64,000 nt of DNA. Origin: Actinomyces ruminicola (GTDB lineage: Bacteria > Actinomycetota > Actinomycetes > Actinomycetales > Actinomycetaceae). The stretch covers positions 1 to 64,000 of the forward strand of contig NZ_FNIM01000001.1 of the NCBI RefSeq assembly GCF_900103885.1. Reading direction: 5' to 3'. The notes under the pieces were generated by a model, which was given only the letters and a program-made list of their open reading frames with translations, was not told where the DNA came from and did no database searches. The translations under genes and the position numbers were made by a program. Below, in pieces: positions 59,044 to 64,000 of the stretch (position 1 is its first letter; the number at the start of each line of letters is the position of its first letter).

Positions 59044-60624
59044 ATGACCCCAGCCACCGCAGACATCGACCCGACCCGTGCCGCCCTCGGCGTCGAGTTC
59101 GGCTCCACTCGCATCAAGGCGGTGCTGATCGACGCGACCGGGACCGTACTGGCTGACGGCGGTCACACCTGGGACAACGAGCTGGTCGACGGGGTGTGGA
59201 CCTACTCGATGGACGCCGTCGTCACCGGACTGCGGGCCGCCTATGCCGACCTGGCACACCGTTATCGGGAGCGCTATGGCGCCCCGCTCACCGAAGTCGG
59301 GGCAATCGGGATCTCCGGGATGATGCACGGATACCTCCCCCTGGACGCAAAAGGGGAGCTGCTGGTGCCCTTCCGGACCTGGCGCAACACCTTCACCCAG
59401 GACTCCTCCCACACCCTGTCGGAGTTGTTCGGGCTGAACATCCCGCAGCGGTGGTCGATCTCGCACCTGCACCACGCCATCACCCACGGCGAGGGGCACG
59501 TGACCCGCATCGCCCGCCTCACCACGCTGGCCGGCTACGTCCACTACCGGCTCACCGGAAGGCACGTGCTGGGTGTGGGCGAGGCCTCCGGCGTGTTCCC
59601 CATCGGCCCGGACGGGCGCTCCTTCGACGCCGACATGCTAGCCGCCTTCGACCGCCTGGTGGAGATGCCGTGGCGACTGTCCGACATCCTGCCGGAGGTG
59701 GCGGTGGCCGGGCAGGAGGCCGGCCAGTTGACCCCCGAGGGCGCGTACCTGCTGGACCCCACCGGCACGCTCCGGCCCGGGGCGCGGCTGTGCCCGCCGG
59801 AGGGCGACGCCGGCACCGGCATGGTGGCTACCAACTCCGTGCGTCCCCGCACGGGCAACGTGTCAGCGGGCACCAGCGCCTTCGCCATGATCGTGCTGGA
59901 CCATCCCCTGCGCAGCCTGGTGGAGCAGATCGACCTGGTGGCCACCCCGTCCGGCGCTCCGGTGGCCATGGCGCACTCCAACAATTGCACCTCGGACTTG
60001 AACGCCTGGGTGGAGGTCTTCTCCCAATTCGCCGAAGCAATCGGTCATCCCGTCCAGCGTGGCCCGCTGTTCGACGTCCTCCTGGGCGCCGCCGCCGAGG
60101 GCGATTTGGACGACTCGGGGGTGCTGTCCTACAACTACCTTTCTGGCGAACACCTGGTGGGGCTGGCCGAGGGGCGGCCGCTGGTTGTCCGCCGTCCAGA
60201 GGGAGTGCTGTCGCTGGCGGGGCTGATGCGTGCGCACCTGTTCGCCGCTTTCGCCTCGATGGCATACGGGGTGAAGATCCTCAAGCAGAGCGAGGATGTT
60301 CCGATCGACTCGATGTTCGCCCACGGCGGCATCTTCAAGACTCCCGAGATCCCCCAGCGCGTACTGGCGGCGGCCTTCGATACCCCGGTGTCCGTGGGGC
60401 AGGCGGCCACCGAGGGCGGTGCCTGGGGCATGGCCCTGCTGTCCGGCTACCTCCTGTGGAGCGAGGGCCTGCCCCTGGAGGACTACCTGGACGAGCGCAT
60501 CTTCGCCGACCTGGCAGTCACTACCATCGCCCCCACCCCCGCGGAGGTCGCCGAGTACGCCCGCTACCTGGACCGTTTCATTGCCGCGCTGCCGGTGGAG
60601 AGGGCCGCCGCCGAGGCTTTCTGA
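59044..60624 (+). CDS. FGGY-family carbohydrate kinase
   Basis: A 526-aa cytoplasmic sugar kinase. The first phosphate loop is ALGVEFGSTRIKAVLID, the sugar-binding region includes GISGMMHGYLPLD, and the second domain has RTGNVSAGTSAFAMIVL and HGGIFKTPEIPQRVLAAAF. It resembles xylulokinase/ribulokinase-type FGGY members, but the exact sugar is not readable. ATG 59044 has GGAG 7 nt upstream. It stands alone behind a promoter with a LacI-type operator, so induction by its sugar is likely. A weak hairpin (60630-60647) follows the stop. Confidence 0.88.
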   Translation: MTPATADIDPTRAALGVEFGSTRIKAVLIDATGTVLADGGHTWDNELVDGVWTYSMDAVVTGLRAAYADLAHRYRERYGAPLTEVGAIGISGMMHGYLPLDAKGELLVPFRTWRNTFTQDSSHTLSELFGLNIPQRWSISHLHHAITHGEGHVTRIARLTTLAGYVHYRLTGRHVLGVGEASGVFPIGPDGRSFDADMLAAFDRLVEMPWRLSDILPEVAVAGQEAGQLTPEGAYLLDPTGTLRPGARLCPPEGDAGTGMVATNSVRPRTGNVSAGTSAFAMIVLDHPLRSLVEQIDLVATPSGAPVAMAHSNNCTSDLNAWVEVFSQFAEAIGHPVQRGPLFDVLLGAAAEGDLDDSGVLSYNYLSGEHLVGLAEGRPLVVRRPEGVLSLAGLMRAHLFAAFASMAYGVKILKQSEDVPIDSMFAHGGIFKTPEIPQRVLAAAFDTPVSVGQAATEGGAWGMALLSGYLLWSEGLPLEDYLDERIFADLAVTTIAPTPAEVAEYARYLDRFIAALPVERAAAEAF

Positions 60625-60658
60625 GACTCACTGCGCGAAGCCGCAGTCGGAGTAGTCC

Positions 60659-61057
60659 TCACGCCCGTCTTGTCTGGGCCCAGTACTCCCAGCAGGCACT
60701 GCGCTCAGGGCCGGCCCAGGCGTCGTCGTCGGTACCGACCTCGCCCTTGGCCTGGTTGATCACCAGAGCCGGCAGCATCGGCTCCCCGCGCTCGGTGCAG
60801 TCGTGCCCGAGCAGATGCAGCAGCGGACCCATGTGCCGCGGCAGGACGGCCCCGCGAATCGCCTCGCTGAGCTCGCCGTAGGTGATGACCTCGCCGTGCG
60901 CGGCGACATCGATGAGCACCGCGCGCGAGCGCGCCACCGCCTCGGCCAGGCGCGGTGTCAGCGTGTGCATGCGCTCCCCCACCGGATACCGCTGCCCCAC
61001 GGTCAGCGCGAGTTCTCCGTCCCGGGACGGTCCGGGTTCTGGCGATGCTCCGCTCAT
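60659..61057 (-). CDS. Hypothetical protein with MGMT-like winged-helix segment
   Basis: About 132 aa. The segment AHGEVITYGELSEAIRGAVLPRHMGPLLHLLGHDC resembles the winged helix of alkylguanine-alkyltransferases and ATL proteins (ITYGELA), but no PCHR or PWHR active site follows; instead there is PMLPALVINQAKGEVGTDDDAW. Similar domains occur in small unassigned bacterial proteins. ATG 61057 or GTG 61069 may start it. The function is unknown; DNA binding is a guess from the fold. Confidence 0.65.
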   Translation of the reverse strand: MSGASPEPGPSRDGELALTVGQRYPVGERMHTLTPRLAEAVARSRAVLIDVAAHGEVITYGELSEAIRGAVLPRHMGPLLHLLGHDCTERGEPMLPALVINQAKGEVGTDDDAWAGPERSACWEYWAQTRRA

Positions 61058-61155
61058 GGCTGCCGACACCCGTCCATCCTGCCAGACTCAGGCTCAGGCA
61101 GGCGGCGGCACGCACAAGTCCGCGCAGCACCACCGACGCCTGCAAAGATAGGGAC

Positions 61156-61392
61156 ATGGCCACCTCCACGTTCCCCTCCGTCACAGTCTCCGGCGAGATC
61201 AAGCTCGGGCAGTTCCTCAAGCTCGCCGGCCTCGTCGAGGACGGTGCCGAGGCCCGTATAGCCATTCAGTCCGGCGATGTCACGGTCAACGGTGAGGTTG
61301 AGACCAGGCGGGGGCACCGCCTGGCCGACGGGGACGTCGTCGTGGTGGACCTGCCGACGGGCGCGGCCGGCGCCGTGGTGACCGCATCCTGA
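61156..61392 (+). CDS. S4-domain RNA-binding protein (YbcJ-like)
   Basis: A 78-aa protein consisting of one S4 domain: EIKLGQFLKLAGLVEDGAEARIAIQSGDVTVNGEVETRRGHRLADGDVV, matching the YbcJ/YaaA group of free-standing S4 proteins implicated in rRNA or tRNA binding. ATG 61156 has no strong ribosome-binding site; TGC-AAAGAT lies 6 nt upstream, so the gene may be leaderless. It is divergent from the preceding hypothetical gene. Confidence 0.88.
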   Translation: MATSTFPSVTVSGEIKLGQFLKLAGLVEDGAEARIAIQSGDVTVNGEVETRRGHRLADGDVVVVDLPTGAAGAVVTAS

Positions 61393-61455
61393 GCACCTGG
61401 ACTCGGCGACTCGAACAAGCCGCGTGCCTCACCCGACAGCGCCGAGTCCCTGTGG

Positions 61456-61516
61456 TGCGAGCTTTTGTGCCCTGGTGTACGGGTATTCGCCGTACACCAG
61501 GGCACAAAAGCTCGCA
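61456..61516. repeat. Perfect 27-bp hairpin, copy 1
   Basis: Arms 61456-61482 and 61490-61516 are perfectly complementary around the 7-nt loop GTATTCG. A 64-bp stretch (61458-61521) is repeated exactly at 62747-62810. The two copies are in the same orientation and enclose the AbiEi/DUF559-like gene. The arms contain AGCTTTTGTGCCCTGGTGTA. Confidence 0.95.
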
Positions 61517-61653
61517 GTGGGCGGTGCCCGAGGCGGGCGCTGACACGGCCGCCCACGTCACCCGCGTCCACAGGGAGTACTCGCGACACCCTCCCGCGCA
61601 TCCCATCAACAGCGCCCGGCATCCATACCCCGCTGCCGCCGCACGCTTGTCCC

Positions 61654-62691
61654 ATGCAGTACTACCCGATGCCCCCGCCACTGCCGCCCATGACGTTCAC
61701 CTCGGAGCGCACGCGCCGCTCCCTACGCGGCAGGGACGACCTGATCGCAGTCGATCGGGGCGCATACGTGCAGCCGCCGGACTCGGCCGCCCCACTGTGG
61801 TCGCAGCAGCAGTACGTGACGCTGGCCCGGTGCGAAGCCGTGCTGCACGCCCACCGCTCGGCCATCAGCCTCACCCACGAGGCCGCCGCGGCCGTCCAGG
61901 GCCTCGCCGTCCCCAGCGCCGAGCCCGATATCCGCGTCGCGGTGACACACAATCACTCGCGCTCACGCAGGCTCCTGCCCCAGCAGACATATGCTCAGGG
62001 CACGCGCAGGCACTCGGGTCGGCGCGTGGCTGCCGTACGCTCCACAACCGCGCCGGCCCCGAGCGACGTCCATGTGGTCGGCGGCCTACGGGTGACCACG
62101 CCGTTGCGCACCGCCATGGACTGCGCCTTCGACCTGCCGGCCCTGGATGCGATCGTGGTGGTCGACTCCGCCCTGCGCGCCGTCTGTCGGCCCGACCGAT
62201 TCACCGGTCATTACGGCGGCGGTCTTTCGGCTGACACCGCAATCGACACGCTGAAAACAATGATTGAGAGGCAGGGACCGCGCGCGGGGAAGCAAAGAGC
62301 ACGCGCCGTCGCAGCCATCGCCGATCCCCGGGCGGAGTCTCCCGGTGAGAGCGTGCTGCGCGGGGTGGTCCACGCCGTCGGCCTGCCCGCCCCGGAGGTT
62401 CAGGAGCGCTGGGCCGACGACGGCGAAATGACCGAGTACTTCCTAGACCTGGCCTGGCCCGAGTATCGCCTCGCGCTTGAGTTCGACGGCTACGGCAAGT
62501 ACCGCAGTGCCGAAGATCTTCGCAATGAGAAGCATCGTGAGATGCGGCTGCGCAACACCGGCGGCTGGCGGGTGCACCGCGTCGAGTGGGGCGATCTGCG
62601 CGATCGTGAGGCCCTGGGGCGACGGCTGGTCGACTTGTTCCCGCCCTGCGTGGCACGGCTGACACGACGCCGAAAGGACCTGTGGCTGTAA
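61654..62691 (+). CDS. AbiEi-antitoxin/DUF559-like protein
   Basis: A 345-aa protein of the actinobacterial type often named AbiEi antitoxin-like with a C-terminal DUF559 or Vsr-like nuclease fold. The N-terminal half has RGAYVQP, RSAISLTHEAAAAVQGL and [16 protein letters not shown]. The C-terminal half shows a PD-(D/E)XK-like set: D265 in FLDLAWPE, E276-F-D278 in ALEFDGYGKY, K282, and WRVHRVEWGDL. ATG 61654 is my start; a TTG at 61465 would place the hairpin inside the protein. No AbiEii toxin gene adjoins. Defence or stress roles are guesses. Confidence 0.75.
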   Translation: MQYYPMPPPLPPMTFTSERTRRSLRGRDDLIAVDRGAYVQPPDSAAPLWSQQQYVTLARCEAVLHAHRSAISLTHEAAAAVQGLAVPSAEPDIRVAVTHNHSRSRRLLPQQTYAQGTRRHSGRRVAAVRSTTAPAPSDVHVVGGLRVTTPLRTAMDCAFDLPALDAIVVVDSALRAVCRPDRFTGHYGGGLSADTAIDTLKTMIERQGPRAGKQRARAVAAIADPRAESPGESVLRGVVHAVGLPAPEVQERWADDGEMTEYFLDLAWPEYRLALEFDGYGKYRSAEDLRNEKHREMRLRNTGGWRVHRVEWGDLRDREALGRRLVDLFPPCVARLTRRRKDLWL

Positions 62692-62744
62692 GCCGCCGAG
62701 TGCACCGAGACACCTCATCGCTGACACACGCGAAACCCGTCTGG

Positions 62745-62805
62745 TACGAGCTTTTGTGCCCTGGTGTACGGGTATTCGCCGTACACCAGGGCACAAAAGC
62801 TCGCA
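62745..62805. repeat. 25-bp hairpin, copy 2
   Basis: Arms 62747-62771 and 62779-62803 pair perfectly around the same GTATTCG loop. It lies between the convergent AbiEi-like gene and dnaE. A degenerate echo of the right arm (GCACAAAGGGTCGCAG) follows at about 62811-62826. Confidence 0.95.
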
Positions 62806-62832
62806 GTGGGGCACAAAGGGTCGCAGCAGGCG

Positions 62833-64000
62833 TCAGCGCTTGAGACAGCCGGGGCCCAGCAGGGCCTTGATGTCGGAGTAGAAGGCCGCAGATGCCTCAA
62901 CGCGCAGGGAGTTGTCAAGCTGGGTGCGCACCTCGCGCCCCGGGCTCGTCAGCGTCAGCCGCACGGTGGACATGCCCGGATGCTTCTCCAGCACGGTCTT
63001 GAACTGCTCCACCAGCGGGCCGGTGCAGCGGTTCGTGGGCAGGGTGATGGTGACCGCCTCATGCGTGGCGCTGGAGACGTCCGGCACCGTCATCTCCTGC
63101 ACGTACAGGGCGACCTGGCCGTCGCGGCGGTTCAGGCGCCCGCGCAGGGTCACGACCGTGTCCGGGGCCAGCATGGTGGATACCGTCTGGTAGGTGGAGG
63201 GGAAGAACAGCGCCTCAATGCTTCCGCCCAGGTCCTCGATCTGGGCTATCGCCCACAGGTTGCCCTGCTTGGTGGTCTTGCGGGTCAACGAGGTGATCAG
63301 GCCGGCGATGGTGACCATGGCGCCGTCGGGCCGGTCGTCGTCCTCAATGAGGTCGGAGATCTCGGTGTCCGCCAGCTTGGCCAGGGCACTCTCCAGGCCC
63401 AGCAGCGGGTGGTCGGAGACGTACAGGCCGAGCATGTCGCGCTCGTAGGCGAGCTTCTCCTTCTTGTCCCACTCGGGCAGGTCGGGGACCTCCGAGGAGA
63501 AGACCGGGCCGGAGCCGAAGCCGGCATCGGCCTCGCCGGCGGCGTCCCCCATGATGGAGGCGAACAGGTCGAACTGGCCGGCGGCCTCGTTGCGCTTGAC
63601 ACCGATGATCTCGTCCACGAAGTCCTCGTGGCAGGCCTGCAGCGCCCGCCGCGACTTGCCGAGCGTGTCGAAGGCGCCGGCCTTGATCAGGGAGTCGATG
63701 GTGCGCTTGTTGCACACGACCGCGGGGACCTTGTCGAGGAAGTCCTCGAAACTGGTGAAGTCGCCCTTCTGCTCGCGGGCCTTCACGATGGCGTCCACGA
63801 CGTTGGCGCCGACGTTGCGGATGGCGCCCAGGCCGAAGCGGACGTCGTCGCCGACGGCGGAGAACTGGGCCCGGGAGGCGTTGACGTCCGGCGGCAGCAC
63901 CTTGATGCCCATATGGCGGCACTCGCCCAAGTACACGCCCAGCTTGTCCTTGTTGTCCTTCTGCGAGGTCAGCAGGGCCGCCATGTACTCGGTGGGATAG
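62833..64000 (-). CDS. dnaE: DNA polymerase III alpha subunit, C-terminal part (runs off the window)
   Basis: The last 388 codons of the replicative polymerase; the frame is open through the right edge (YPTEY precedes the first Met at 63984). GVYLGECRHMGIKVLPPDVN and VRFGLGAIRNVGANVVDAIV are the fingers/beta-binding side; CNKRTIDSLIKAGAFDTLGKSR is the helix-hairpin-helix region; and the OB-fold is at MVTIAGLITSLTRKTTKQGNLWAIAQIEDLGG. The C-terminal tau-binding domain is present and ends in KALLGPGCLKR. Polymerase active-site residues lie outside the window. Confidence 0.96.
   Translation of the reverse strand, partial: YPTEYMAALLTSQKDNKDKLGVYLGECRHMGIKVLPPDVNASRAQFSAVGDDVRFGLGAIRNVGANVVDAIVKAREQKGDFTSFEDFLDKVPAVVCNKRTIDSLIKAGAFDTLGKSRRALQACHEDFVDEIIGVKRNEAAGQFDLFASIMGDAAGEADAGFGSGPVFSSEVPDLPEWDKKEKLAYERDMLGLYVSDHPLLGLESALAKLADTEISDLIEDDDRPDGAMVTIAGLITSLTRKTTKQGNLWAIAQIEDLGGSIEALFFPSTYQTVSTMLAPDTVVTLRGRLNRRDGQVALYVQEMTVPDVSSATHEAVTITLPTNRCTGPLVEQFKTVLEKHPGMSTVRLTLTSPGREVRTQLDNSLRVEASAAFYSDIKALLGPGCLKR

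Follow-up and report, generated by a model that had tools for sequence, protein, structure and literature searches.

The first 64,000 nt of contig NZ_FNIM01000001.1 of Actinomyces ruminicola (the window, to which all unprefixed positions refer) harbor, close to their end, a single predicted nuclease gene bracketed by two long palindromes. The gene (61654–62691, + strand; 345 aa) encodes an AbiEi-like part joined to a Vsr-fold nuclease of the DUF559/MTES_1575 type. The upstream palindrome (copy 1, 61448–61521, core 61456–61516) has a stem of 27 bp, and the downstream one (copy 2, 62737–62810, core 62745–62805) a stem of 25–27 bp. Both are unstranded features closed by the loop GTATTCG and lie in the same orientation; 64 nt of the two (61458–61521 and 62747–62810) are identical, and the ten bases preceding these stretches differ at three positions. 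On the + strand, copy 1 folds as RNA with −60.8 kcal/mol (z −9.4) and copy 2 with −56.6 kcal/mol (z −9.8), values equaled by none of 200 shuffled sequences. Among the 17 families of direct repeats in the window (length of at least 30 nt, seed 14), this palindrome represents the sole near-identical one (96%, the rest reaching at most 87%). Hence, the claim of the initial annotation that two identical 64-bp hairpins surround one gene is borne out by the identity, the stems, and the folding energies.

Copy 1 is separated from the gene by a spacer (61522–61653, +), presumably comprising the promoter and leader, and the distance from hairpin to gene is similar at other loci with paired hairpins. 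To the right of copy 2 lies a degenerate outer half-site GGCACAAAGGGTCGCAGCAGG (62810–62830, unstranded), 20 nt past the inner arm half-site; judging by the sequence and the 19–20 nt period of the arms (see below), it may belong to a nested array. The two stems are followed by GTGGGCGG and GTGGGGCA, respectively, with no T-run, a reading with which termination of transcription is still compatible. The nuclease gene is intergenic, neither intron-borne nor interrupting a target site: an S4-domain protein gene (61156–61392, +) ends 65 nt ahead of copy 1, and on the other side lies the 3′ end of a DNA polymerase III alpha gene (62833–64000, −, continuing past the window), which displays HHH_6 and OB-fold domains and which we take to be of the dnaE type. 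An FGGY-kinase gene is also found nearby, and a gene for the AbiEii toxin (DUF1814) is not among the neighbors of this locus. In an Rfam search of 60600–64000, nothing scored above the gathering score; the best match, mir-455, attained 28.8 bits vs. 70, and such microRNA-hairpin matches were regarded as chance hairpins. Plasmid and NCBIfam searches gave no match.

The window protein matches PF18741 (REase_MTES_1575) with 21.9 bits, which is under the Pfam cut-off of 38.2. PF18741 is matched by 21 of 25 family members and PF04480 (DUF559) by nine at E ≤ 0.1, and the two PADLOC AbiEi models seen most often hit 21 and 20 of these members at E ≤ 0.01 (best E 3.5e-10), so the label “AbiEi/DUF559-like” initially given to the gene is a fair one. 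In the AlphaFold2 model (mean predicted local distance difference test score, pLDDT, 92; predicted TM-score, pTM, 0.91), residues 228–334 resemble I-Bth0305I (3r3p; Z 11.7, root-mean-square deviation 2.5 over 95 residues; hmmsearch E 0.0075), as well as NGO0050 (3hrl, Z 10.4) and Vsr (1cw0, Z 9.9). Residues 11–224 match AbiEi (6y8q) with Z 8.0 and a root-mean-square deviation of 6.0; MenT-type nucleotidyltransferases fit this part equally well or better (8an4, Z 8.9), and Foldseek alone returned nothing at E ≤ 0.001. The AbiEi label is, therefore, owed to the PADLOC sequence models, the fold match being insufficient alone. The residues E232, D265, E276, D278, and K282 are invariant in the 25 aligned members. 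The ratio of nonsynonymous to synonymous substitution rates (dN/dS) spans 0.14–0.21 in nine comparisons (0.16 for the window gene vs. each of two orthologs), the comparisons showing a gene under purifying selection. Overall, the protein is predicted to combine an AbiEi-like DNA-binding part with a Vsr-fold PD-(D/E)XK nuclease. Matches to the transposase domain Y1_Tnp (PF01797) numbered zero in the window genome, and five of 14 control genomes were positive.

The association of the palindromes with this nuclease reaches far beyond the window. Family matches are present in 47 of 49 Actinomyces genomes, with up to ten per genome, and 63 family loci were read (64 stretches, one of which, the window locus of genome G041, lacks the gene); these are mostly better-scoring matches, hand-picked and with orthologs included, i.e., not independent. 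A matched hairpin pair (hairpins sought in each 450-nt flank, score of at least 25, the highest control attaining 11) was found around 19 of the 63 family genes vs. none of 259 other genes of the same stretches. The stems in these pairs are 14–34 bp long, mostly at least 20 bp, and comprise about 14 distinct hairpin types; the upstream palindrome ends approximately 120–210 nt ahead of the aligned protein start. When 400-nt flanks were compared, hairpins not being required, 36 of 62 loci scored above the 99th control percentile and 47 above the 95th (one contig-end locus was dropped; the control scores themselves extend far, up to 96 vs. a median of 13). On a protein tree of 60 rows, from which the short or broken proteins L208, L213, and L227 were excluded, the paired state is scattered, requiring 13 changes (at least 11 of them forced) vs. 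an average of 16.3 with shuffled labels, where 16 of 500 trials needed as few as 13; such scattering fits an old family trait that decays and renews. Outside Actinomyces, the flank similarity exceeded the 95th percentile of the controls at 12 of 33 loci and the 99th at five, the control set (95 genes) being noisier than that of the genus; loci with similar flanks occur in Cellulosimicrobium, Sanguibacter, Jonesia, Arthrobacter, Mobilicoccus, and others. Comparison thus shows palindrome pairing to be a frequent trait of the nuclease family.

The sequences of the palindromes follow the nuclease lineages. In 161 of the 171 pairs of loci, the proteins share less than 60% identity, and the mean hairpin similarity is 0.15 (maximum 0.36), vs. 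0.14 (maximum 0.30) for shuffled palindromes. The other ten pairs, with protein identity above 60%, show a mean similarity of 0.70 (minimum 0.33). The best match of the upstream hairpin is its own downstream partner at 17 of 19 loci, the other two being slightly closer to the hairpin of an ortholog, and in three genomes possessing two or three paired genes, the hairpins of one pair are similar at 0.61–1.00 and those of different pairs at 0.09–0.20. At the same site between the S4-domain and dnaE-type genes (hereafter, the S4–dnaE site), genome G005 carries a relative of 48% identity, whose bracketing pair, 77 nt in length, is entirely different. Comparison shows, at the level of the sequences read, that each nuclease lineage is accompanied by a palindrome sequence of its own.

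An internal regularity is also evident: a set of 46 non-redundant segments of the flanks (16 taken from a hand-picked locus set, nine outside Actinomyces) gave internal direct-repeat scores with maxima at lags of 19 and 20 (z 10.2 and 17.9 vs. Markov shuffles), one of which is the best lag in 28 segments. Many palindromes, therefore, look like two inverted arms, each made of two half-sites approximately two helical turns apart, and half-sites at a distance of 19–20 nt would be the arrangement expected of a DNA-binding protein. In some window-type copies, nesting is seen, a 20-nt unit CTRSTACGAGCTTTTGCACC being doubled on one side. By eye, several window-type copies terminate in CTCGTAGTAG, but types such as F5 and F8 are without GTAG at their ends, GTAG (or CGTC) being the tag at one end of the palindromes of known REPtrons (see below). 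The loops display peculiarities of their own. At L203 and L204 (type F7 in G010 and G041), both bracketing hairpins have an asymmetric loop that faces opposite ways in the two species, the arms being nearly the same, as if the center had been flipped, and at L195, L222, and L228, the two bracketing hairpins carry opposite loops.

The window genome (G000; 3.10 Mb, 39 contigs) harbors 14 copies of the window-type palindrome (type F1), the copy present on both C5 and C28, at a contig end in each case, being counted once. The assembly breaks near this palindrome, at the start of C5 and the end of C28, and nearly the same copy is present on both contigs, with one base different nearby. None of the 14 copies is located inside a gene predicted by our own hexamer script; seven lie between co-directional, five between convergent, and one between divergent genes, and one is situated at a contig edge. 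Of the 14, 12 are closest to the 3′ end of a gene and two to a 5′ end, and 11 copies lie 22–76 nt past a stop codon. One copy (L048, G000:C15:70075–70131) is found near the likely origin of replication, behind a gene presumably encoding DnaA and beside genes that we take to be DnaN- and RecF-like; full copies are present there in three of the six relatives compared. The initial annotation held that many scattered copies with no link to the nuclease family would make the palindrome an ordinary intergenic repeat. The search of the genome and its relatives revealed the scatter, 12 of the 14 copies being away from the nuclease gene, along with the link, each of the four types counted (see below) also bracketing one nuclease lineage.

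Base pairing in the window-type palindromes is kept despite sequence change, as shown by comparison of copies that were detected as hairpins, in itself a bias toward pairing. In 25 copies picked from 41 of the window type, 90.5% of stem cells are paired, and 33 cells with two-sided change were counted vs. 12.7 (standard deviation 4.5) after shuffling, a value reached in none of 500 trials; with the partner slid, the count was at most nine.

Solo copies were counted for the window type and three of the 13 others (F5, F7, and F11) by pattern searches with mismatches, restricted to hairpin-forming places, so both under- and overcounting are possible; a 16-mer pattern with three mismatches already gave 7/10 in the control vs. 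25/20. The half-site patterns were found in seven (window type), three (F5), five (F7), and 12 (F11) of the 49 genomes, and in none with the reversed control patterns. The seven genomes with the window type are the seven closest ones (98–100% identity over the 190-aa C-terminus of the dnaE-type protein, all others showing at most 90%). Half-sites of F5 (forward/reverse) amount to 35/34 in G005, 48/46 in G032, and 0/1 in G033, with none in the other 46 genomes; 20 regions of G005 contained 21 F5 elements, none within a predicted gene. Those of F7 amount to 14/14 in G010, 19/15 in G041, 10/9 in G028, 6/6 in G000, and 2/1 in G024, with none in 44 genomes. Thus, the window genome holds at least two types, F1 and F7. 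Genome G032 seems to carry several repeat families together: a GC-rich sequence of about 48 nt occurs approximately 25 times on its contig C1 as another repeat family, and tandem arrays of CGAAACCGGCGGAAAAGACACG-like units occupy intergenic DNA at L261, L266, and L270, the latter with further nested palindromes.

Comparisons of orthologous sites reveal how the palindromes and the genes between them come apart. At the S4–dnaE site of G010, the gene lies between two palindromes, with S4 on one side and dnaE on the other; in G041, a single palindrome separates S4 from dnaE, its left flank being that of the left copy and its right flank that of the right copy. This arrangement is more simply read as a loss of the gene in G041. 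Elsewhere, the site harbors a gutted gene (G025), a palindrome with other DNA (G024), or neither gene nor palindrome (G028). Close relatives of the window gene (at least 79% identity) were found in the genus scan at this one shared locus only, in G000, G010, and G034. At a second site, two window-type palindromes bracket a membrane-protein gene (339 aa in G010, G010:C14:347193–348443; 328 aa in G028, G028:C2:27368–28593), and G041 possesses one palindrome with the same exact junction; G000 also has one palindrome there, next to a truncated left gene, the exact junction being present in G041 only. Both junctions are probably palindrome–palindrome deletions, and their exactness at the nuclease and membrane-protein sites suggests that palindrome pairs recombine, deleting single genes and not only the nuclease. 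In G024 (L119, G024:C1:2079140–2081645), two copies of the S4 gene, each with its palindrome, flank a 509-aa gene, which may be, as a guess, an insertion sequence (IS) transposase.

For the window-type solo copies, 12 of the 14 were queried (all except window copy 2 and C18:15304); e1 and e13 were dropped, having no anchor of at least 100 nt, and e11 has one anchor. The resulting 51 comparisons at ten loci comprise 25 full palindromes, three halves, and 23 cases with no half-site in the compared stretch. At e7 in G010, the palindrome is cleanly absent, which is compatible both with loss and with a pre-insertion state. In the comparison of G005 and G032, the F5 arms are kept at four of 16 orthologous G032 loci, where the intergenic DNA is too diverged for boundaries to be placed. 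Overall, these comparisons point to hairpin losses and two likely deletions, not to transposition.

The bracketing copies are 98.5% alike in the window genome and 96.9% in G010, and 82–83% alike between the two, with a synonymous divergence (dS) of the gene of 0.62. Likeness within genomes despite such a divergence points to recent conversion or renewal. The F11 bracketing copies follow the same direction (92–95% within a genome, 85–91% between genomes).

In view of these findings, we consider it probable, though far from assured, that the nuclease and its palindromes form a partnership working like a REPtron (a system of repetitive extragenic palindromic, REP, elements) with an unrelated class of enzyme. 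It has the appearance of a separately evolved parallel to the known partnerships between REP palindromes and transposases. In such a system, the AbiEi-like part would, judging by the co-evolution, bind the half-sites of its own palindrome, and the nuclease, judging by its fold and conserved residues, would cut or nick at the palindrome, either as a duplex or as an extruded hairpin. Repair of the break from another copy could keep the two flanking copies alike and, rarely, as the copy numbers hint, could carry the palindrome, by itself or together with the gene, to additional sites at gene ends; repair from the second copy might occasionally delete palindromes. Binding, cutting, and mobility are, thus, proposed here from the sequence record. 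A broader proposition, to which we grant somewhat less than an even chance, is that AbiEi–Vsr-fold nucleases drive a separate class of extragenic palindromes in Actinobacteria, where each lineage would read its own half-site code, break the palindrome (duplex or hairpin), and convert, multiply, and recombine its copies chromosome-wide.

A number of observations weigh against the REPtron-like partnership. The AbiEi fold match taken alone is within the background stated for the tool (values of about 8). A strict matched hairpin pair is absent at 44 of the 63 family loci, and the window-locus gene is intact in just three of the seven genomes carrying the window type. When whole stem pairs are scored, those with two-sided change number nine vs. 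6.0 after shuffling, a weak excess reached by 27 of 500 trials. Genome G045 carries 14/22 F11 half-sites with no family match at E ≤ 0.001, and G032, with its abundant F5 half-sites, has no F5-bracketed gene at the S4–dnaE site nor at the one family match read of four; hence, palindromes persist in G045 (and in G032 as far as read) with no matching gene, showing that they can last without it. The same two genomes led to rejection of the idea that copy number depends on gene presence. The clearest empty sites, e6 and e9, retain remnants of the outer unit, and, thus, look like losses (deletions). At the 16 G005/G032 loci and the ten anchored loci of the window clade (five of them inspected as alignments), no target-site duplication, sure pre-insertion site, or proven insertion was identified, and mobility of the kind shown by miniature inverted-repeat transposable elements (MITEs), as proposed initially, found no support, target-site duplications not being seen among the loci compared. 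The F7 bracketing copies are 0.75–0.89 alike within a genome vs. 0.86–0.94 for upstream copies between genomes, and the window-type bracketing copies of G034 are only 0.86 alike. The window-type solo copies are 0.873 alike between orthologous positions, 0.795 within the same genome, and 0.783 between different loci of different genomes. These solo copies are, accordingly, mostly old, with little genome-wide homogenization. Concerted evolution is weak at the scale of the genome and was retained as a reading solely for bracketing copies, in some of the lineages.

The palindromes may alternatively be viewed as operators of an AbiEi-type autoregulator, with the scattered copies as its regulon and the nuclease domain incidental or defensive. 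The N-terminal part is indeed AbiEi-like, upstream palindromes end at a distance from the protein start (120–210 nt, see above) that would suit an operator, and 23-bp inverted repeats in the promoters of AbiEi and Rv2827c are the binding sites of these very proteins (PMC7319586). Such an operator leaves unexplained the matching palindrome downstream and the copies behind genes, whose nearest end is mostly a 3′ end, and it sits poorly with nuclease residues invariant in 25 relatives; we consider it unlikely. It is quite unlikely that the locus is a selfish cassette of the homing-endonuclease type, which would cut gene-less sites and use the palindromes as insertion homology, the solo palindromes being scars similar to solo long terminal repeats (LTRs). 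With 14 to about 50 solo copies vs. one cassette per type, the scars are too numerous unless cassettes turn over fast, and in the genus scan the window gene and its close relatives occupy just the one shared locus. The features recalling homing include the nearest solved nuclease, the homing enzyme I-Bth0305I, the contrast between the bracketed gene of G010 and the exactly one palindrome of G041 at the S4–dnaE site, and the existence of relatives in which the gene is broken or absent.

The third possibility is that these are ordinary extragenic repeats serving as transcript 3′ ends or insulators and spread by general recombination, the nuclease gene lying between two of them by position. The very stable folds and the placement of most copies shortly past a stop codon, outside predicted genes and away from the nuclease gene, are what such repeats would show, and not only the membrane-protein gene but also an operon that we take to be of the ABC type is bracketed in some genomes. 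This explanation is, nevertheless, very unlikely, as it does not account for the contrast in matched pairs between the family genes (19 of 63, with about 14 different sequences) and the controls (0 of 259), for palindrome sequences tracking the nuclease lineage, or for the lack of a T-run after the stem. The transcription barrier envisaged in the initial annotation is retained as a possible side role only, most copies lying just behind genes.

The closest known analogs of the nuclease–palindrome partnership are the REPtrons, with which it shares a gene, here for a nuclease, bracketed by palindromes, solo copies between genes, and sequence types limited to clades. Co-evolution of enzyme and palindrome is stated for TnpA-REP/RAYT in PMC8266576. 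At the same time, the defining feature of REPtrons is missing: the RAYT/TnpA-REP proteins are IS200/IS605-like Y1 HUH enzymes, whereas the enzyme here is AbiEi-like with a Vsr-fold PD-(D/E)XK nuclease, and its palindromes have long stems (14–34 bp) with half-sites 19–20 nt apart. Thus, of the initially suggested “REP/RAYT-like cassette carrying a nuclease-fold gene”, the bracketed gene, the scattered solo palindromes, and the link to the family stand, but the RAYT does not, given the absence of Y1_Tnp matches and the different fold. TIRtrons are comparable in that a gene is bracketed by long repeats forming moderately abundant families, and differ in having long terminal inverted repeats and HUH-motif tyrosine transposases, which the window enzyme is not; both REPtrons and TIRtrons, as described in PMC3733652, have tyrosine transposases. 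The type IV toxin–antitoxin antitoxin AbiEi and Rv2827c (COG5340) share the AbiEi-like N-terminal part; the system in question differs from AbiE by the fused nuclease, by the palindromes on both sides and genome-wide, and by the lack of AbiEii at the window locus. I-Bth0305I, which belongs to an intron setting (its PDB entry is named “mobile intron protein”), shares the C-terminal nuclease fold, and differs in that the gene described here is an AbiEi-like fusion, intergenic and palindrome-bracketed. The main text of the RepRanger paper (PMC12306157) contains no words starting with nuclease, transposase, RAYT, or DUF, and no description tying DUF559/AbiEi nucleases to palindromes was found in the open-access literature.

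If the partnership is real, it would represent a REPtron-like system operating without an HUH transposase and would bear on the origin and persistence of extragenic palindromes. Under the broader proposition given above, REP-like elements would have arisen on at least two occasions, with HUH enzymes in one case and PD-(D/E)XK enzymes in the other. About 14 natural enzyme/palindrome pairs form a series from which the recognition code may be readable. A common, as yet unexplained actinobacterial protein family would thereby gain a concrete DNA partner along with a testable prediction of binding.

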